Translations under genes and position numbers: made by a program
Assembly (NCBI GenBank): GCA_021776655.1
Contig: JAJFFK010000023.1
Coordinates: 62,001-126,000 of the forward strand
Source of the DNA: Henriciella sp.
Lineage (GTDB): Bacteria > Pseudomonadota > Alphaproteobacteria > Caulobacterales > Hyphomonadaceae
DNA: 64,000 bases
Direction of reading: 5' to 3'
The notes under the pieces: model-generated
Databases searched by the model: none
What the model saw: the letters and a program-made list of their open reading frames with translations, nothing else
What the model was told of the DNA's origin: nothing
Shown here: positions 1,579 through 59,149 of the stretch, one piece after another
Layout: each line of letters begins with the position of its first letter
Position numbering within the stretch: position 1 is the first letter of the stretch

Positions 1579-2877
1579 ATGAGTGTGATTGTACGTATTG
1601 GGGTTCTGGGTGCTCTCGCAGGTGGCCCGCTTCTCGGGCTGGCGCAGGCCCAGCAAAATTATTACAGCCGGGACAAGTATGAAGCTGTCACGGATCGAAG
1701 CCAGCCGGAATTTGATCCAACAGCAGTCCGGGTCGGAACCTTCCTGGTCAACGCCAATGCGCAAGCCAGCGTTGCCCTGACTGACAACGTCTTTGCTTCA
1801 AATACAAATACACAATCGGACACAATCGTTCGGGTCGGCACTGCGGTTGCAGGACAAACCGATTGGAGCAATCACGAAGTTGGTTTCCGTGTCTCGGCGT
1901 TTCGCAATGAATTTCTCGATACGAACAGTGAATCAAACACTGACCTGAGGGGCAGCTTACGCGGACGTTTGGATGTCACACGGCAGTTTTCAGTGAGCGC
2001 AAACGTATTTGCTGAAGACCTAACCGAAGCCAGAACGAATTTCGCTAATGGCGCAAATATTGATGGTCCGGTCGAATTTCAGCGCACCGGATTTGGGTTT
2101 GGTGCCAATTATCAAGCGGATCGCATTCGTTGGGAAAATTCAGTACGTGTCGTGGAAGCAGATTACGAGGACTCAACCACAACCAATTTCGATCTCGACT
2201 TTCGTGACCGCTCTGTCGTTTCCGGACGCAGCCGCTTGTCATACGCTATTTCACCAGATTTGGCGGTGTTTGGGCAGGGAACCTACAGTTCGTCTGATTA
2301 TGACATACCGCAAATCGTCAGCTTTACACCGCCTGGCGGCGTACCAGTGCTGGTCCAGCGCGTGCGCGATTCTGACACCTACACAGTGGCGGGCGGCATC
2401 AATTTCGAACTGCAAACACTCATTCGCGGTGATATTGCGGTTGGGTATCTGACTGAAGACAGAAAAGATGCGAATCTGTCCGACGTTAACAGCTTATCGG
2501 TGGATGGCCGTTTGCAGTGGTTTCCGAGCCGCTTGACGACTGTTACCTTCCGGGGCGGGCGGCAGGTTCAGGATTTCGGTCTGGTTGAATCATCAACAGC
2601 CCTTCAAACAAATGCCAGCGTACGGGTTGATCATGAGCTACGCCGGAACATCATCTTGTCAGCGTTCGGCCGCATTGACGACAACAATTACAAAGACATT
2701 GACCGCGATGACAGCGTTACTGCGTTTGGGGTTGAAGGCCGATACAAGATGAACCGCCACATACATTTCGACGCGTTTGCCCGCCACACTAACCGCGATG
2801 TCAGCGGCGTCGATGTCAGCGGCAATCCCAATTTTGACGTCACCGTTGTCGGCGTTGGCATTCGGATTTTCCCGTAG
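1579..2877 (+). CDS. Exopolysaccharide-locus outer-membrane beta-barrel protein
   Basis: A 432-residue secreted protein. The N-terminus is a signal peptide (hydrophobic run VRIGVLGALAGGPLLGL, then AQAQQ as the likely cleavage site). The mature part alternates short polar and aromatic strands throughout and ends in GVGIRIFP, close to the terminal aromatic signature of outer-membrane barrels. It resembles the BBP2/VpsM-type putative beta-barrel porins found next to Wzc-like genes in Wzy-dependent polysaccharide loci, where they are thought to help export polymer across the outer membrane. The ATG at 1579 is preferred over a TTG 36 bases upstream because AAGGTGG sits at the right distance. It is followed after 60 bases by the co-polymerase/kinase gene, probably in one transcript. 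Function is inferred from fold and context. Confidence 0.8.
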   Translation: MSVIVRIGVLGALAGGPLLGLAQAQQNYYSRDKYEAVTDRSQPEFDPTAVRVGTFLVNANAQASVALTDNVFASNTNTQSDTIVRVGTAVAGQTDWSNHEVGFRVSAFRNEFLDTNSESNTDLRGSLRGRLDVTRQFSVSANVFAEDLTEARTNFANGANIDGPVEFQRTGFGFGANYQADRIRWENSVRVVEADYEDSTTTNFDLDFRDRSVVSGRSRLSYAISPDLAVFGQGTYSSSDYDIPQIVSFTPPGGVPVLVQRVRDSDTYTVAGGINFELQTLIRGDIAVGYLTEDRKDANLSDVNSLSVDGRLQWFPSRLTTVTFRGGRQVQDFGLVESSTALQTNASVRVDHELRRNIILSAFGRIDDNNYKDIDRDDSVTAFGVEGRYKMNRHIHFDAFARHTNRDVSGVDVSGNPNFDVTVVGVGIRIFP

Positions 2878-2937
2878 CCTTGCCCATAATCTGACTGGTC
2901 TACATCCCGCACTCAGCCAAGAAACGAGTAAATTGCA

Positions 2938-5325
2938 GTGACCGAGACATTCAGTATCGAACTTCCGAAGACAATGTCGCCCACCAATGATGCGAGCGGC
3001 GGTGAACTTCCGATCGACATCAAATCACTGGTCAATATTGTTGTAAAACGGTTCTGGCTGATCGCGATCACGGCAACGATCATCTTCACTTACGTTGCCT
3101 ATTCGGCGCTGAGTCAAACGCCGGTTTACACGGCGCAGGCGCAAATCATCGTGAATAATAGCAAGCTGAATGTGGTCAGCTTCGATGAATTGATCAGCGG
3201 CGGCGGCCTGACGACATCCGCCCTTGATACAGAAGTGCGTGTGATTTCTTCACCGGCCTTGCTGCGACGTGTGGTGATTGAGCTCGACCTGACCTCTGAT
3301 CCTGAATTCAACCCGACACTACGTGATTACAAGCCTGGCCTAATGGACCGGGTTAAGGGTTGGATTTCCGGCTTACTCTCTAGCGATGATAATGAGGGCG
3401 GCGCGCCAGACATACCGCTAACCCCTGAACAACACCAGGAAATGCTAACCAAATGGGCAACTGGAATCCTGCGCGGAAAAGTCCGGGTTTCTCGCATCGG
3501 AACAACCTATTTGCTGGCCGTAACCGTCACCAGCACATCGCCTGATACTGCAGCCCGCCTGGCAAACGCCGTAGCAGACCAGTACCGGGTTGACCAAATG
3601 GAAGCCAAACTTGAGGCAACCCAACGCGGCACTCTGTGGCTGTCAGAGCGCGTATCTGTTATGCGCGACGAACTCGCCATCAAGGAAAATGCTGTTGACC
3701 AGTTTCGCCGCGACAATGGCCTGCTCAACGCCGAAGGAACGTCTCTGACTGAGTCGAATATAGCGCTGCTGCAACAACAGAAGATTGGCCTTGAAGCCGA
3801 CCTCGCCCGGGCCCGCGCCCGTTACGACAATATGCGCAACCAAATAAATAGCGGCGCTGGCATCGACTCGATCACGGAAGTCTTAACCTCATCGGTCATT
3901 TCGAACCTGAAAAGCCAGCGCGCAACTGTGCAGCGTAAAGTTGCCGAATTGCAGTCAACCTTTGGACCTCGCCACCCGGATTTGGTTGAGGCGCGGAACG
4001 AAAATGCCGATATTGAGCGTCAGATACTGGCCGAAGTTGATCGGGTTGCCGCCAGCATCGAAGGCGAAGTGCGGATTGCAGAAGACCGAATCGCGAGCAT
4101 CAACCGCGAACTTGGACAGAATCGGTCAACCCTGCTGCGCGACAATTCAGCCCTGGTTCGGTTGCGTGAGTTGGAGCGGGACGCAGAAGCCAGTCGCACG
4201 ATATATGATGAAATTATCAACCGCTACAAGGAAACCAGCGAGCAAGAAGATTTGATCGAAGCCGATGCGCGTATTCTGACGCCGGCAACTGTCCCCAACA
4301 GTCCGAGTGCGCCGCGCCCCAAGATTGCCATGGTGATCGGCCTCCTGCTTGGCGGTGTTATCGGCGGTCTGTTGGCTTTGATTGCTGAGATATTCGATTC
4401 AAAACTAAGCTCAACCACCGATGTGGAACGTCTTGGTGTCTCCGCCCTGACCACTGTTCCATTGATTTCAAGCGCAGGCTTCCTCGGCTTTGGCAAGAAG
4501 AGGCCGGCTGAATATCTCGTCGAAAATCCCCTATCGGCTTATTCTGAAGGTATCCGCTATCTGCGAGCGGCCATCGTTTTTTCTGACATTGATAGTCAAG
4601 CCAAAACCGTCGCGATTACCTCTTCGTTGCCCGACGAAGGCAAGACCAGCCTGAGCCTGAGCCTTGGTCGCATGTCGGCCTTGTCGGGGTCCAAGACCCT
4701 GGTCATTGATGGCGATTTCAGACGCCGGCAACTGACCGAAGCGGCGGGTATCAATATAGAAACGGGCATGATCGAACACCTGTTCGGCGAAGGCCAGCTC
4801 GACGACGTGGTCACCAAGGACGACTTGACCGATCTCGACATCTTGCCTTTGTCGCCTGATGGCCACACACCGCACGACGTCTTTGGAACTGCGGCCTTCG
4901 ATCGGCTGCATGCCAAATTACGGTCTGTCTATGACCTGATCCTGATCGATACAGGCCCGCTTTTGTTAATGTCCGAAGCGCGGGTGATTGCGGGTAAAGC
5001 TGACAAGACAATTCTCATCGTGCGCTGGCGCCGGACCAATCGTGCTGTCGTGCGCAAGTCACTCGGCCTGCTCAAGACATTCCGCGCGGACCTGCTCGGT
5101 GTCGTCCTCAACATGGTCGACCTCGAACGTCGCCGCCAGCATAATGAGCCGGGCACCGCCTATCGTGACTACAAGAAATATTACCAGGTCGAGGGCAAAA
5201 AACGGTTCCGCGGTCTTGGCAGGAAAAAAGCTGCGGCAGCCAAGCCAAAGGCCGCCCGTGCGCCGACACAGGCCCAGCCCACGCCGCCAACACAGCCCAA
5301 GCGCGAACCCGAAGCCGTAGACTGA
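2938..5325 (+). CDS. Wzc/ExoP-type polysaccharide co-polymerase with BY-kinase domain
   Basis: A 795-residue inner-membrane protein controlling polymer length and export in Wzy-dependent pathways. Order of parts: a Wzz domain with a first transmembrane helix near residues 38-58, a long periplasmic coiled-coil region, a second helix near 461-485, then a cytoplasmic tyrosine autokinase. Its Walker A is SSLPDEGKTS (about 562-571), Walker A' LVIDGDFRRR (about 588) and Walker B LILIDTGP (about 668). A C-terminal tyrosine cluster, YRDYKKYY (about 743-750), is followed by a Lys/Ala/Pro-rich tail, so both the catalytic site and the autophosphorylated tail are present in one polypeptide. The start is GTG 2938; an ATG 36 bases in is an alternative. 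A PPP-family phosphatase lies in the same locus, but no cognate low-molecular-weight tyrosine phosphatase is visible. Confidence 0.92.
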   Translation: MTETFSIELPKTMSPTNDASGGELPIDIKSLVNIVVKRFWLIAITATIIFTYVAYSALSQTPVYTAQAQIIVNNSKLNVVSFDELISGGGLTTSALDTEVRVISSPALLRRVVIELDLTSDPEFNPTLRDYKPGLMDRVKGWISGLLSSDDNEGGAPDIPLTPEQHQEMLTKWATGILRGKVRVSRIGTTYLLAVTVTSTSPDTAARLANAVADQYRVDQMEAKLEATQRGTLWLSERVSVMRDELAIKENAVDQFRRDNGLLNAEGTSLTESNIALLQQQKIGLEADLARARARYDNMRNQINSGAGIDSITEVLTSSVISNLKSQRATVQRKVAELQSTFGPRHPDLVEARNENADIERQILAEVDRVAASIEGEVRIAEDRIASINRELGQNRSTLLRDNSALVRLRELERDAEASRTIYDEIINRYKETSEQEDLIEADARILTPATVPNSPSAPRPKIAMVIGLLLGGVIGGLLALIAEIFDSKLSSTTDVERLGVSALTTVPLISSAGFLGFGKKRPAEYLVENPLSAYSEGIRYLRAAIVFSDIDSQAKTVAITSSLPDEGKTSLSLSLGRMSALSGSKTLVIDGDFRRRQLTEAAGINIETGMIEHLFGEGQLDDVVTKDDLTDLDILPLSPDGHTPHDVFGTAAFDRLHAKLRSVYDLILIDTGPLLLMSEARVIAGKADKTILIVRWRRTNRAVVRKSLGLLKTFRADLLGVVLNMVDLERRRQHNEPGTAYRDYKKYYQVEGKKRFRGLGRKKAAAAKPKAARAPTQAQPTPPTQPKREPEAVD

Positions 5326-44474: not shown

Positions 44475-45135
44475 CGGACTGAGTTCTGGCTTTCTCCCGC
44501 GCTAAGACGCTTCGCGTCACGCGGGATAGCAGGTTCCGCGCTACGCGCCCCACGGGTGTCATGAACCGGGCTCAGGGCTGTATCCCAATTCCGACTGTCC
44601 CGGGCTTGACCCGGGATCTCCCGCCGCTGGTCCGGTTTTGTGGCGCGTAGTTTGTTTTGCCTCGCGCTAAGGTGCTATCGCACCACGCGAGACGTAAGCA
44701 GGTTCCGCGACAGCGCTTTGCGCTGCCACATGAACCAAGCTCAGGGCTGTTTTTCTCTCCCTCTCTCCATTGTCATCCCGGACGCGAAGCGATCCGGGAC
44801 CCAGCGCCAAGCATCTCTGGGTCCCGGATATTTGCTGACGCAAATTCCGGGATGACAATTTGGTATGGGGGAGCAATCCCCACCTCCGACTGTCCCGGGC
44901 TTGACCCGGGATCTCTCGCAAGGCTTCCGGTCACCGTGGCACGAGACTCCGGATCAAGCCCGGAGCCATCGGAGACGTGAACAGCCCTGAGCTGCCCAAT
45001 CAAGTTGGGCAGAGCCCCGGTTCATGTTCGCGCCCCACGGGTGTCAGCGAACGGAACCCGCTCCGCCTCGCTGCGCCGAAGGCGCTTAGCGCGAAGCAAA
45101 ACAAACCACTCACCACAAAAACTCAAACCAAACGT
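44475..45135. repeat. Nested palindromic repeat mosaic between tadC and cpaB
   Basis: A 660-base non-coding stretch built from repeats. (1) Hairpin of CCCGCG/CGCGGG at 44496-44524. (2) A unit beginning GCAGGTTCCGCG and ending CTCAGGGCTG at about 44529-44580, repeated at 44698-44749, with an inverted copy at 44981-45060. (3) Arms GTTTGTTTTGC (near 44650) and GCAAAACAAAC (near 45095), which make 44648-44752 and 44980-45108 one large inverted-repeat pair. (4) TGTCCCGGGCTTGACCCGGG at about 44596 and 44891. (5) The GTCATCCCGG palindrome at 44769-44859. It looks like accumulated REP/ERIC-like units rather than genes. Confidence 0.75.
44769..44859. repeat. GTCATCCCGG composite palindrome, copy 1
   Basis: Begins ATTGTCATCCCGG and ends CCGGGATGACAAT, with an inner pair ATCCGGGACCCAG / CTGGGTCCCGGAT, so the whole unit is an imperfect two-level inverted repeat of about 90 bases. 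The same architecture recurs at 54628-54733 and 55253-55360, flanking the GIY-YIG gene. Confidence 0.85.
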
Positions 45136-52332: not shown

Positions 52333-54615
52333 ATGACAGATACATCCGCGATCACCGCCGCCATGCAGGCCATTCAGACCGATGCGGACGCCGCCAGCCA
52401 CGGCATCAATGCCGAGGAATGGGACCGGCTGATTACCCGCCTGACCCGCCATCCCAATCTGGTCGAGCTCGGCATCTATAGCGTGATGTGGAGCGAGCAT
52501 TGCTCGTACAAGTCCTCGCGTCGTCACTTGTCAAAGTTTCCAACCACGGGCGAGCGTGTAATCCAAGGCCCCGGCGAGAATGCTGGCGTCGTCGATATAG
52601 GCGACAACCAAGCGGTGATCTTCAAAATGGAGAGCCACAATCACCCGTCCTATATTGAGCCCTACCAAGGCGCGGCGACGGGTGTTGGCGGCATCTTGCG
52701 CGACGTGTTCACCATGGGCGCGCGGCCCATCGCACTGGTCAACGCGCTGCGTTTTGGTAGCCCGGATCACCCCAAGACACGCAGCCTTGTCGCGGGCGTC
52801 GTGGCGGGCATTGGCGGCTATGGCAACTGTGTCGGCGTGCCGACCGTGGCGGGCGAAACCGAGTTTGATGAGGGTTATAATGGCAATATTCTGGTCAATG
52901 CGATGGCGATTGGCCTCGCCGATCAGGACAGGATTTTCTACGCGCGCGGCGCGACGCCGGGCAATCCGATCTTCTATGTCGGCTCAAAAACTGGCCGCGA
53001 TGGCATTCACGGCGCGACCATGGCCAGCGCTGAGTTCTCCGAAGGCGACGAGGAGAAACGCCCGACCGTTCAGGTCGGCGACCCGTTCACCGAAAAGCTG
53101 CTGATCGAAGCCTGTCTTGAGCTGATGGAAACCGACGCGATCCAGGCGATCCAGGACATGGGCGCGGCGGGTCTGACCTCGTCAAGCGTCGAAATGGCCG
53201 ATAGCGGCGGCGTGAATGGCGAAGGCATTGGCGTGACCATAGACCTCGACAAAGTCCCGCAACGCGAAACCGGAATGACCGCTTACGAAATCATGCTGTC
53301 AGAGAGCCAGGAACGCATGTTGATGGTGCTCAAACCCGGCAAGATCGACGTCGCCAAGGCGGTGTTCGACAAGTACGACCTCGACGCTGAAGTGATCGGC
53401 GAAACCACTGATACCGGCCACCTCACCCTGCTCCAGCATGGCGAGGTGGTTTGCGATATCCCGGTCGCACCGCTGGCTGAGGACGCACCAAATTATGACC
53501 GCCCGTGGATTGAACCGCCCAAGCGCGCACCGCTTGACATGTCGAAATATGATGAGCCTGAAGACTATGCGCAAATCCTGCTCAAGCTGATGTCCTGCCC
53601 GAACATGGCGTCGAAACGCTGGATTTGGGAACAATATGATCGCCACGTCATGGGCGACACGGTCGACAGCTCACAAAGCATGGGTGACGCCGCCATCGTA
53701 CGCATTCACGGCACCCCAAAGGCCATCGCGGTGACCTCTGACTGCAACCCGCATTATGTCGCCGCTGACCCGTATGAGGGCGGCAAACAGGCCGTTGCCG
53801 AGGCCTATCGCAACCTGTCAGCGGTTGGCGCGACGCCAATTGCGATCACTGATAATCTCAATTTCGGTAACCCGGAAAAGCCCGACACGATGGGCTATAT
53901 CGTCAAGGCGATCGAAGGCATGGCCGAGGCCTGCCGCGTCCTCGATTTCCCCGTCGTGTCGGGCAATGTCAGCCTGTATAATGAGACAGACGGCGTCGCC
54001 ATCCCGCCAACCCCGGTCTGCGGCGGCGTCGGCCTGATCGAAGACGTTGCCAAGACCGCGACACTAAAAGGTGCGCAGCCCGGCGACGTCCTGATCCTGA
54101 TCGGCGAAACCAAAGGCCATATCGGCGCAAGCCTTTATGCGCGCGAAATTCTAGGCCTGAAAGGCGAAGCGCTAGGGCCCCCGCCGCCGGTTGATCTTGA
54201 GGTTGAGAAACGCAACGGCGATTTCGTCCGGATGCTGATTGAGCAGGGTCTCGTCAACGCTGTGCATGATGTCAGCGATGGCGGGATAGCTTGTGCAGCG
54301 GCGGAGATGGGAATGTCAGCCGGCTTGGGGTGGATCAGCTATTTTCCAACTGAAGCCTCTCTTCATTTCGGCGAAAATCAATCAAGCTATTTGGTTGCAA
54401 TCGACCATGATAGAATACTGCAAATCGAAGCTATGGTTGGAGAAGCCGGATGCCGTTGGTGCGGTGTCTACGCAGAAATAGGTGGTAAAGAATTCGTCTG
54501 GAAGGACCAACCCAATGTGGTTTCACCGATATTGCGTGAGTTCCGGATCCCCCTCTCGCGCCTCCGCGAAGCGCATGAAGGTTGGTTGCCGCGCTATATG
54601 GGTAAGGTGGACTAG
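52333..54615 (+). CDS. purL: Phosphoribosylformylglycinamidine synthase subunit II, with replaced 3' end
   Basis: A 760-residue ATP-dependent synthase making [59 protein letters not shown] and [18 protein letters not shown] are the family blocks, and the length matches the small PurL type. From about 54310 to 54530 base composition drops (about 45% GC for 54361-54480 against about 58% in an upstream sample) and codon choice shifts, while the reading frame stays intact. The last 90 bases are repeated at 55101-55190 after a GIY-YIG gene. I infer that the last 100 or so codons came from another source together with that element. Confidence 0.93.
54526..54615 (+). repeat. purL 3' end, in-gene copy of a 90-bp direct repeat
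   Basis: Encodes the last residues of PurL ([20 protein letters not shown] and the end KVD). It matches 55101-55190 base for base in length, with about 80 of 90 identical. The mismatches fall mainly at third codon positions. Confidence 0.9.
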
Positions 54616-54627
54616 GCCCAAACCCTC

Positions 54628-54733
54628 AATTGTCATCCCGGAAAGCTCGTAGAGCTTATCCGGGACCCAGAGTTACGAATACTACACTCGGCCTCACTGG
54701 GTCCCGGGTCGCTATGCGCCCGGGATGACAATT
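54628..54733. repeat. GTCATCCCGG composite palindrome, copy 2 (left of GIY-YIG)
   Basis: AATTGTCATCCCGG ... ATCCGGGACCCAG ... CTGGGTCCCGGG ... CCGGGATGACAATT: the same two-level inverted repeat as at 44769. It begins 12 bases after the purL stop and ends 55 bases before the nuclease gene. Confidence 0.88.
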
Positions 54734-54788
54734 GTAGGTTATCAATAAATGCATGACAAACCTATTTTGTTCACTTATTGTTCTCAAC

Positions 54789-55088
54789 ATGAAAGAGCAT
54801 AATTACTTCGTCTACATCCTTGCCTCAAAGCGTAATGGAACCCTCTACACCGGGGTTACTAACGACCTCGCACGACGGATATGGGAACATAGAACCGGGT
54901 ACATTAAAGGCTTCACCGACAAGTATAATGTCAAAACACTGGTCTGGTTTGAACACCACATCTCTGTCGAAGCGGCTATAACGCGCGAGAAACGAATAAA
55001 GCGATGGCGTCGGTCGTGGAAACTGGACCTCATCGAGACAGCCAATCGGCAATGGAACGATCTGTATGAGGGGCTAATCGCGGCCTAA
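54789..55088 (+). CDS. GIY-YIG family endonuclease, stand-alone
   Basis: A 99-residue protein consisting only of the GIY-YIG nuclease domain: YFVYILASKRNGTLYTGVTN (the GIY equivalent is VYI and the YIG equivalent YTG), catalytic Arg in DLARRIWEHRTG, then VWFEHHISVEAAITREKRIK with the catalytic Glu in the EAAI-REK helix, and KRWRRSWKLDLIE. This is the YhbQ/UPF0213-like small type without a DNA-binding extension. ATG 54789 fits the family length; an ATG at 54753 would add 12 residues. It is AT-richer than its surroundings. It is flanked on both sides by GTCATCCCGG palindromes and, on the right, by a displaced purL end, so it is probably the enzyme that moves the element. Confidence 0.88.
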   Translation: MKEHNYFVYILASKRNGTLYTGVTNDLARRIWEHRTGYIKGFTDKYNVKTLVWFEHHISVEAAITREKRIKRWRRSWKLDLIETANRQWNDLYEGLIAA

Positions 55089-55100
55089 CTGACAACCTAA

Positions 55101-55190
55101 CCGATGATGCGTGAGTTCCGAATTCCCCTCTCCCGCCTTCGCGAAGCGCATGAAGGCTGGTTGCCGCGCTATATGGGCAAGGTGGAGTAG
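55101..55190 (+). pseudogene. Displaced remnant of the original purL 3' end
   Basis: Reading frame [20 protein letters not shown] continues to RYMGKVE and a TAG stop, matching the PurL C-terminus except for the first and last residues. Ten or so base differences from 54526-54615, mostly silent, show it is a diverged coding copy rather than a fresh duplication. Immediately before CCGATG the frame is closed by TAA and homology stops, marking a junction. There is no start region, so it is not expressed as a gene. Confidence 0.9.
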
Positions 55191-55195
55191 CCATT

Positions 55196-55226
55196 CTGGG
55201 TCCCGGCGTTTCAACCGGGATGACAG
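55196..55226. repeat. Half unit of the GTCATCCCGG palindrome
   Basis: CTGGGTCCCGGCG followed by AACCGGGATGACAG: the right half only of the composite palindrome, starting six bases after the purL remnant. Confidence 0.8.
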
Positions 55227-55252: not shown

Positions 55253-55360
55253 TTGTCATCCCGGAATTTTCGCAGAAAATATCCGGGACCCAGAATTTCA
55301 AAGATCACACCCGAACTGACTGGGTCCCGGATAGTCGCTACGCGCCTTCCGGGATGACAG
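55253..55360. repeat. GTCATCCCGG composite palindrome, copy 3 (right of GIY-YIG)
   Basis: TTGTCATCCCGGAA ... ATATCCGGGACCCAG ... CTGGGTCCCGGAT ... TTCCGGGATGACAG, a full two-level unit. It ends 18 bases before the end of the convergent M28 peptidase gene. Confidence 0.87.
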
Positions 55361-55378: not shown

Positions 55379-56326
55379 CTACCTCGCCGCCGCGATCTCA
55401 GCCAGCCGCGAGTCTGCTGCCGCTGCCATCATCACGGCGGTCTCAATCGATTTCAGAAACCAGTCCTGATCGACTTTCGCAAAGTCATCGCTGGGCTTGT
55501 GGTAATCGGGATGGTCTTCAACCCCGAGATAGAGGTGCGCAATGCCCGCTTTGAAGAAGGCGGCCTGATCCGACATCAGGGTCCAGTCTTCCAGTCCCTC
55601 GTCGGCGACATCAAAGCCCATTTTCACAGTCACCGGCGCCGCCACGGCCACCGCCTCAACCATCGGGATCAGACCCGGATTATGCGCCGTGCCAGAGGCC
55701 CAGAGACTGCCATTATCGCCGCGTGAAATCATATCCAGATTGAGATTGAAGGTCAGCGCCGACACATCAACCGGCGGATGGGCAACGAAATAGGTCGATC
55801 CCAGAAGGCCAAATTCCTCGCCGTCAAAAGCAACAAACAGAACGTCATTGTCCGGCGTATTTGCGGCAAAATACTCGGCGATGGCGAGCATCCCCACGAC
55901 CCCGGACGCATTGTCATCGGCGCCATTGTAGATCTCGCCGTCAACGACGCCGAGATGGTCATAATGCGCCGTCACCACCAAAGTCAGGCCGCTATCGCGG
56001 CGACCTCTGATCATGCCGATCAGGTTGGCGGCGGACACCGTATCGCCGTCCTTGCCGGATGAGGCGATAAAGTTCTGGGCATAGTCATCCGCAAAGGATT
56101 GCAGTCCAATCGCCGCCATTCGCGCCGCGATCAAGCTGCGCGCCTGTTGATTGCCAGCCGTGCCAACCCGGCGTCCCTGCAAGTCATCGCGGCTCAATGC
56201 TTCGGCCATGTCCAGCGCGGCCTGCGCTTCAAACTTGGCGGTTGCGACACCCGGATCGATGGCACATGCCGTCAGACCCAGTGCGATTATTGCAGCGCTT
56301 ATCGGGCGTGTTTTCAGCTGGCGCAT
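55379..56326 (-). CDS. M28 family zinc aminopeptidase, lipoprotein
   Basis: A 315-residue periplasmic peptidase: lipoprotein signal IIALGLTAC, an N-terminal helical part, then the M28 core. Zinc ligands and catalytic Glu appear in order: TAHYDHLG (His), GADDNASG (Asp), FDGEEFGLLGS (catalytic Glu and Glu ligand), LNLDMISRG (Asp) and DHPDYHKPSDD (His). It releases N-terminal amino acids from peptides. ATG 56326 with GTGGAG upstream is used. Confidence 0.92.
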   Translation of the reverse strand: MRQLKTRPISAAIIALGLTACAIDPGVATAKFEAQAALDMAEALSRDDLQGRRVGTAGNQQARSLIAARMAAIGLQSFADDYAQNFIASSGKDGDTVSAANLIGMIRGRRDSGLTLVVTAHYDHLGVVDGEIYNGADDNASGVVGMLAIAEYFAANTPDNDVLFVAFDGEEFGLLGSTYFVAHPPVDVSALTFNLNLDMISRGDNGSLWASGTAHNPGLIPMVEAVAVAAPVTVKMGFDVADEGLEDWTLMSDQAAFFKAGIAHLYLGVEDHPDYHKPSDDFAKVDQDWFLKSIETAVMMAAAADSRLAEIAAAR

Positions 56327-56344
56327 GCTTAGCTCCACTTCCGG

Positions 56345-58153: not shown

Positions 58154-59149
58154 ATGAAGAACATTTACCAAATGCCACTACCGCTTGGAGACCGCCCTAC
58201 ATCTCTTGAACTCTGTGCTGGCGCTGGGGGGCAGGCACTAGGTTTAGAGATGGCAGGCTTCGGGCACGAAGCGTTAGTTGAGATCGACGTGCGCGCTTGT
58301 GAAACGCTTCGATACAACAGGCCCGAATGGAATATATTCGAGCAGGATTTGAATCAGTTTGATCCAACACCATACAAGGGAATTGACCTTGTCGCGGGCG
58401 GGTTGCCTTGTCCGCCATTTTCGTCAGCAGGCAAACAGCTCGGAGAACTTGACGAGAGAAATCTGTTCCCGAGAGCACTGGAAATTATTGAATCGATCCG
58501 ACCTAAAGCAGTCATGATAGAGAATGTGCGTGGATTTCTGGGCGCTGTTTTTTCAGATTATAGACAGCACTTAAAGGATCAACTCAAAAAACTAGGCTAT
58601 GTAACGGAATGGCGTTTGCTCAATGCATCAGACTATGGCGTACCGCAATTGCGGCCAAGAGTGGTCATCATTGCCTTGCGCGCCGACCATTCGGAGCGAT
58701 TCAACTGGCCTGAGCCTTTGCCAAATACCCCGCCAACGGTTGGGAATGTTGTTGGAGACCTCATGGGAGAAAATGGCTGGTCCGGCACGAAGGGTTGGAT
58801 CGAGCAGGCCGATGAGATAGCACCGACCATTGTTGGCGGATCAAAGAAACATGGAGGCCCTGATTTAGGCCCTACAAGGGCGCGCGCAGCGTGGGCTTGT
58901 TTAGGTGTGAACGGCAAGTCTATCGCAGACATGCCTCCAGAGCATGATTTTGTTGGGATGCCGAGACTAACGGTGCCTATGGTGGCCCGCTTGCAGGGCT
59001 TTCCTGATGATTGGCATTTCGTTGGTAAGAAAACCAGTGCCTACAAACAAGTCGGCAATGCTTTCCCCCCGCCCGTAGCAGCAACCGTAGCCAAACAGAT
59101 ACATGCTGCCCTACTCGGCCAACAAGTCAGCGTTCTTCAAAGAGCTTGA
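58154..59149 (+). CDS. Type II DNA (cytosine-5) methyltransferase
   Basis: A 331-residue m5C methyltransferase with all key motifs: SLELCAGAGGQALGLEMAGF (I, SAM binding), VAGGLPCPPFSSAGKQL (IV, catalytic Cys), IENVRGFLGAVF (VI), VPQLRPRVVIIAL (VIII), and QVGNAFPPPVAATVA (X). It is AT-richer than its neighbours, which suggests recent transfer. It protects DNA from the nuclease encoded one base downstream. The target sequence cannot be read from the protein. About 110 bases upstream separate it from the divergent rhomboid gene; no controller protein gene is visible. Confidence 0.93.
   Translation: MKNIYQMPLPLGDRPTSLELCAGAGGQALGLEMAGFGHEALVEIDVRACETLRYNRPEWNIFEQDLNQFDPTPYKGIDLVAGGLPCPPFSSAGKQLGELDERNLFPRALEIIESIRPKAVMIENVRGFLGAVFSDYRQHLKDQLKKLGYVTEWRLLNASDYGVPQLRPRVVIIALRADHSERFNWPEPLPNTPPTVGNVVGDLMGENGWSGTKGWIEQADEIAPTIVGGSKKHGGPDLGPTRARAAWACLGVNGKSIADMPPEHDFVGMPRLTVPMVARLQGFPDDWHFVGKKTSAYKQVGNAFPPPVAATVAKQIHAALLGQQVSVLQRA

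Follow-up and report, generated by a model that had tools for sequence, protein, structure and literature searches.

A GIY-YIG nuclease gene framed by tagged palindromes behind a mosaic purL in Henriciella sp., a candidate REPtron-like unit

In T-even phages, genes for free-standing homing endonucleases stand beside conserved genes and flanking DNA is replaced, and the elements phage 21 and e14 at icd, whose integrases restore 3' ends, keep the gene that they enter whole by way of a 3' end of their own. Repetitive extragenic palindromes (REPs) are repeats found widely among bacterial genomes. In REPtrons of the RAYT/TnpA-REP type, as set out in the pertinent sections of two papers (PMC3733652, PMC8266576), a small nuclease gene is framed by tagged palindromes that recur throughout the genome. 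CGTC REPs are described in sections of a 2013 survey (Di Nocera 2013, PMC3733652) as mainly alphaproteobacterial units with a GTC tag, AT at the start of the stem and a CCA tail, arranged mostly as head-to-head dimers. An enzyme is proposed for GTAG REPs; in the same sections none was found for CGTC REPs, which seem to be without a dedicated transposase and may have lost their REPtrons, and CGTC REPs did not flank any RAYT or IS200 transposase gene reported there from species that have them. Here we analyzed 64,000 nucleotides of Henriciella sp. (assembly GCA_021776655.1, contig JAJFFK010000023.1, positions 62,001 to 126,000; the window, from genome G000), in which a small GIY-YIG nuclease gene lies behind purL, between a REP dimer and a second, severed purL end.

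The window nuclease gene is framed by tagged genome-wide palindromes like that of a RAYT REPtron, but the enzyme is GIY-YIG rather than Y1/HUH, and the palindromes are of the CGTC rather than the GTAG type. No Y1/HUH tyrosine transposase gene was found between the two copies of the purL end. The GTC tag, the AT next to it, the CCA tail and the head-to-head dimers are shared with the CGTC superfamily; the partnership with a GIY-YIG gene and the longer inner hairpin of the window units are not. The superfamily's stem of 8-9 bp with a paired AT and a loop of 4-5 nt is absent from the window units and present in many units of a phylum-wide set. As with the T-even endonucleases, the nuclease gene adjoins a conserved gene and flanking DNA is replaced; here, however, tails are swapped where the gene is absent, and cleavage of purL is hypothetical. 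As with phage 21 and e14, the insertion leaves its target whole by supplying a 3' end, but no integrase gene lies between the copies, and what was replaced is a lengthy cassette of unrelated sequence. An earlier note on this DNA had likened the locus to integrases that rebuild gene ends, a likeness that holds for the anatomy and extends to nothing beyond it.

Intact purL (52333-54615, plus strand; an open reading frame of 760 codons for FGAM synthase subunit II; PRK01213 equivalog, E 2e-297) contains an AT-rich variable cassette at about codons 662-732 (54310-54530, plus strand), unrelated in sequence comparisons to the cassettes of near relatives, and finishes in a conserved end (54525-54615, plus strand). 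This end, the one in use, is the first copy of a direct repeat. Pattern matching then placed a head-to-head REP dimer at 54632-54729 (units 54632-54668, plus, and 54699-54729, minus), for which a branched fold was predicted as single-stranded DNA (z -8.1). The motif GTTC-N7-GTTC, in the form of the alphaproteobacterial LexA box (54769-54783, plus strand), stands 20 nt ahead of the start of the intact 99-codon GIY-YIG gene (54789-55088, plus strand; PF01541, E 6e-16; UPF0213/COG2827-like). The second purL end, severed from the gene, occupies 55100-55190 on the plus strand; ACCGAT forms its left edge and is also present at the first copy. Between the two copies, the GIY-YIG gene is the sole frame of gene size, the rest being short overlapping frames. 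Further REPs, additional to the palindrome in the earlier note, follow as a lone unit (55198-55224, minus) and a second dimer (55255-55358; units 55255-55291, plus, and 55322-55358, minus), so that the enzyme gene is framed by genome-abundant REPs upstream and, beyond the second purL end, downstream. A gene for a candidate M28-type peptidase, convergent to purL, follows at 55379-56338 on the minus strand.

The earlier note had described the sequence of purL stop, palindrome, nuclease gene and second purL end correctly, the end copy measuring 91 bp. The AT-rich shift that it reported begins at about 54290-54320, with GC content at third codon positions (GC3) of 0.43 in the tail and 0.72 in the body. 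The copies of the purL end were 90% identical over 91 bp, as had been claimed of a diverged allele, with 9 differences of which 6 were synonymous (P 0.01 or 0.04 for the silent bias when 25% or 33% silent changes are expected).

The predicted structure of the GIY-YIG protein (pLDDT 92) matched the fold of UPF0213 protein BH0048 (E 2.5e-4; best match, 1zg2), and resembled that of Slx1, a nuclease acting on branched DNA, weakly (E 0.02-0.1). The protein has a GIY-YIG domain some 80 residues long, in which E and N are conserved; we take E67 and N86 to be the catalytic residues. No match was found in NCBIfam. The protein resembles UPF0213/COG2827 proteins in size, domain and best fold match, and differs in its REP framing, which does not appear in the papers found on these proteins. 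Its putative COG2827 label comes from a passage of PMC1839093, in which a Caulobacter COG2827 gene carries an SOS box. Since 1.9 matches to GTTC-N7-GTTC were expected by chance in the window, the weight of the predicted LexA site rests on the family, where the exact box was present 19-23 nt ahead of the start in 17 of 33 GIY-YIG loci (30 fetched from a longer list and three more of G000), compared with 0.0008 expected per locus.

REP framing was scored across several phyla in the best 80 of 566 confirmed GIY-YIG loci. The longest perfect upstream hairpin gave a modest signal (mean 7.3 vs 6.1), and a tagged-palindrome pattern was therefore adopted, with a palindrome within 300 nt on each side counted as both-sided and other frames of the same loci used as controls. 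Loci near contig ends were dropped, leaving 79 of 80 phylum-wide loci, 28 of 28 and 34 of 38 in two fresh sets, and 112 of 113 in the pattern scan. REPs flanked the GIY-YIG gene on both sides in 41/79 phylum-wide loci and in 3/329 control frames. When the comparison was restricted to genes with a gap of 100 nt or more on each side (29 of the 80 loci), the counts were 14/29 and 0/44. The pattern had been designed on these 80 loci, so neither count is an independent test; the fresh sets are, neither having a locus in common with the first set (95% identity over 1 kb). With the pattern unchanged, both-sided framing was found in 16/28 loci of the first fresh set, for which only 15 control frames were available (0/15), and in 14/34 loci of the second (0/67 controls; 7/20 after thinning of its internal redundancy). 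A looser REP motif was present upstream in 18 of the 33 family loci, compared with 5 of 261 control windows. In the first set, the nearest upstream REP pointed at the gene in 43 of 57 cases and the nearest downstream REP faced it in 36 of 50.

The palindromes on the two sides of a gene were matched to each other and varied with the protein. Flanking stems were identical in 26 of 46 loci, compared with a permutation mean of 3.4 and a maximum of 8, and in 8/16 and 7/14 loci of the fresh sets. Stem identity rose with protein identity (Mantel r 0.30, 0/300 permutations). The window REP family had 89 exact pattern matches in G000, the highest count in the family, and 7 in the window with 0 expected. 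Family genomes with a window-type GIY-YIG gene (n=20) had a median of 12 matches and none had zero; those with another GIY-YIG gene (n=41) had a median of 5, 13 having zero, and those with no or a weak GIY-YIG match (n=44) had a median of 1, 18 having zero. A further dimer of the window REP family lies at 44772-44856.

Many genomes carried several GIY-YIG paralogues at scattered places. At one conserved site in the sister genus g5, with flanks 85-93% identical, two genomes (G103, G104) had a REP-GIY-REP unit and three (G084, G083, G068) only a short spacer. In two other genomes (G013, G016), GIY-YIG genes that were 75% identical occupied the same site in opposite orientation, between flanks 93% and 78% identical. 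These sites are compatible with possible gain, loss and flipping of REP-GIY units. At the g5 site, loci L322 (G032) and L325 (G075) carry a different insert of about 0.9 kb (about 2140-3100). The second GIY-YIG gene of G000 (L039, G000:C40:88221-88496) is broken by an internal stop; the window-type REP motif was absent from the 250 nt upstream of this gene and of two further GIY-YIG genes of that genome (L041, L042).

Judged from the sequences, the association, the matched stems, the covariation and the empty site place the window GIY-YIG gene in a widespread class framed by tagged palindromes. We propose its family as a candidate enzyme for the spread of CGTC REPs, and the name GIY-YIG REPtron for a unit whose mobilization we infer. 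With matched stems and an empty site, this pairing of enzyme and palindrome opens the question of the CGTC mobilizer to direct test.

The 3' part of purL had a history of its own. Among 85 purL loci, 81 were kept for identity and tree counts, four short frames (including that of G014) being dropped; the genus of the window was sampled with 28 of 29 members, and a control family, f4, with 30 of 57 matches fetched. Between the window purL and that of one of its two nearest sampled relatives (G022), DNA identity dropped from 83% to 30% over positions -329 to -299 relative to the stop. PurL residues of about 662-732 were unrelated between close species of the genus, with conserved flanks. In G013 and G016, PurL bodies were 97% and tails 24% identical, the DNA being mostly 83-100% identical on either side of the segment and 33-57% inside it. 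Tails fell below 0.40 identity in 15 of 20 genus pairs whose bodies were at least 0.95 identical and in 96% of 129 pairs with bodies at 0.90-0.95. The corresponding values were 0/3 and 0/14 pairs in f4, and 0/27 pairs and 69% of 146 pairs in g5, in which the exchange is therefore older or rarer. Tail and body distances were uncorrelated in the genus (Mantel r -0.06, 375/500 permutations as high), as expected from the separate history that the earlier note had ascribed to the AT-rich tail, and were correlated in f4 (r 0.72) and g5 (r 0.32; 0/500 permutations each). Tails that are shared evolve normally, being 97% identical in G017 and G020, whose bodies are 99% identical, and 9 of 28 genus members fell in tail clusters common to other genera (45% identity, single linkage).

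Because of these pair identities, Mantel results and normally evolving shared tails, tail variation is read as replacement and not as fast drift. That the variable tail merely evolves fast is very improbable. In the family profile, no part of PurL is less conserved than the tail, and f4 tails do fall below 40% at body identities under 85% (8% of 102 pairs) or under 80% (65% of 243 pairs). However, f4 had 0/14 such pairs at body identities of 90-95%, tails at 97% (G017/G020) and 24% (G013/G016) accompany bodies at 99% and 97%, and GC3 jumps at the tail. These comparisons establish, at the level of sequence, that recombination exchanges the 3' part of purL as a cassette in the family, unrelated versions of residues 662-732 or so being swapped between conserved flanks. 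Cassette exchange in a purine-synthesis enzyme, among species in which it is elsewhere 95% identical, is a striking case of domain-level mosaicism and would mislead trees based on purL. A literature search on the exchange of purL domains yielded no relevant paper among the matches listed. As a phage-borne cassette the tail was not supported: none of 39 pattern-matching stretches in viral contigs was confirmed, and the last 151 residues matched 7 phage records, all below 60% identity. The 16 plasmid matches to the tail were likewise all below 60%.

A second purL end was found only in G000 among the 85 purL loci. An exact pattern of the conserved end matched 86 of 105 family genomes, the 19 without a match being uninformative, and matched twice only in G000 and G093. 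The two matches of G093 lie at contig ends (the end of G093:C37 and the start of G093:C47, where the assembly breaks in the purL 3' region) and resemble one broken copy; in G014, another candidate for an orphan end, the contig simply ends there. G081 also gave an end match, read as the own end of a broken purL frame; that frame (L123) appears to be broken near its middle in an incomplete assembly. In 37 of 84 relatives, the stretch fetched after purL contained an M28-type gene, and the second end is therefore read as the copy still beside its old neighbor. Its position on the side of the M28-type gene bears out the proposal that the old purL end was left behind as the right boundary. Both presumed parental orders exist, the recipient-like purL-M28 in G006 and others, and the donor-like purL-REP-GIY in G003 and G028. 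Both window ends finish in GKV, found in none of 84 other ends, and contain REFR, found in none of 29 other ends compared, so donor and recipient ends would be close kin.

The simplest history of the locus, we infer, is that a donor tail was imported together with REP and GIY-YIG. On the left, a donor stretch comprising purL tail, REP dimer, LexA-type box and GIY-YIG gene would have entered through homology to the purL body. The right joint would have been irregular, perhaps by way of ACCGAT, immediately ahead of the recipient's last 91 bp, which remained; the exchange would thus have ended unevenly in the window genome, and purL would have been kept whole because the donor supplied its own end. 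The gene and its REPs would form a REPtron-like unit with an Slx1-like nuclease, whose production in the subfamily of the window would follow DNA damage. This nuclease may cut REP dimers folded into their branched structure, and cutting could let the REPs and the gene be copied to new sites. For the joint reading, a purL cassette import with GIY-YIG on which a GIY-YIG REPtron-like unit is superimposed, we see the chances as evenly divided. A more far-reaching version, which we consider doubtful, is that GIY-YIG enzymes of the COG2827 type are the missing mobilizers of the CGTC REP superfamily across bacterial phyla and cut branched REP dimers, in some lineages following DNA damage. At purL, in this version, the unit would in addition replace flanking DNA, and its invasions and its losses would have helped to shuffle the PurL C-terminal cassette.

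Several observations weigh against the joint reading. The second purL end is known from one genome only, and no tail donor was found in 385 genomes of the class, which gave only 4 other weak matches. The window REPs depart from the published CGTC families in a mismatched first stem pair as well as in the long inner hairpin. Within the family of the window itself, the tagged pattern placed REPs on both sides of just 5 of 33 loci (upstream of 16, downstream of 10), and the downstream unit pointed away from the gene in 7 of 10. Both nearest units faced inward in only 8/16 and 4/14 double-flanked loci of the fresh sets, so orientation is not a firm rule. The LexA-form box was present in 4 of the 80 phylum-wide loci, three of them from the family of the window, and in 1/28 and 0/34 fresh loci. 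At the g5 site, a REP-like CCGGGACCC piece is retained in the spacer of G088, so presence and absence can reflect loss; G032, G075 and others hold different DNA there, and the spacer therefore looks like an insertion hot spot. The association, covariation and counts may in part reflect shared ancestry, as the statistics ignore phylogeny.

Among the explanations that dispense with mobility, it is possible, though unlikely, that the GIY-YIG protein serves its host as a repair nuclease by removing REP cruciforms, with REPs gathering nearby for regulation or by chance. The predicted fold, weakly Slx1-like, would suit such a role, as would the LexA-form box in the subfamily of the window and the SOS box of the Caulobacter COG2827 gene (per the passage in PMC1839093). 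Against a repair function stand the scattered paralogues of many genomes, the empty site and the stems matched on both sides of the gene. Slightly less probable is a local event at purL without replacement of the tail, either duplication of the purL end inside the genome or integration of a circular molecule of purL end, REP and GIY-YIG gene by a single crossover in the 91 bp. The anatomy is indeed that of a 575-bp insertion between direct repeats, and GKV, absent from all 84 other ends, and REFR occur in both copies; however, 9 differences in 91 bp, 6 of them silent, fit selected alleles better than decay after a duplication, and no circular intermediate was seen, though no search was aimed at one.

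The earlier note had the nuclease cut the 3' end of purL, with repair co-converting the flank. Extended to the genus, this would make the variable tails scars left by invasions that recurred and were lost. This homing account now appears quite unlikely. The GIY-YIG gene does follow purL elsewhere, as the note had suggested checking, in G003 and G028 and thus in 3 of 85 loci, all in the genus (G005 and G026 had too little downstream sequence to be scored). The G003 and G028 proteins are the closest to that of the window among the matches listed (75% and 71%), the second end begins near the edge of the conserved flank, and tail variation is most extreme in the genus that holds the purL-linked copies. 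Yet variable tails stood without an adjacent nuclease in 25 of 28 genus members (two with less than 200 nt of downstream sequence), and flank replacement was not tied to presence of the gene, which may however have been there in the past. G003 and G028 both retain it behind unrelated tails (19% identical). Among fetched loci, REPs neighbor the relatives of the gene far more frequently than they neighbor control genes, and just three of these relatives lie next to purL. The window drop in GC3 from body to tail was exceeded in only 6 of 81 purL genes, and tail GC3 was similarly low in seven relatives (G006, G036, G013, G016, G035, G091, G114), in which no GIY-YIG gene was found in the stretch fetched after purL. 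AT-rich tails without the nuclease exist, which comes close to the case that the note had named as fatal to its model, but their sequences differ from the window tail. The nuclease as cause of tail replacement is not upheld, and within the joint reading the GIY-YIG gene is probably a passenger or an occasional agent of purL tail swaps.

No paper linking GIY-YIG with REPs was found among the matches listed from the open-licence PMC literature. The word GIY-YIG does not occur in the main texts of PMC12306157, PMC6006769 and PMC3733652; PMC9465073, PMC10928387 and PMC11172691 contain both kinds of term, and in their matching passages the nuclease is named only in other settings. Near the locus, a frame at 58154-59149 of the window reads like a candidate cytosine-5 DNA methyltransferase.

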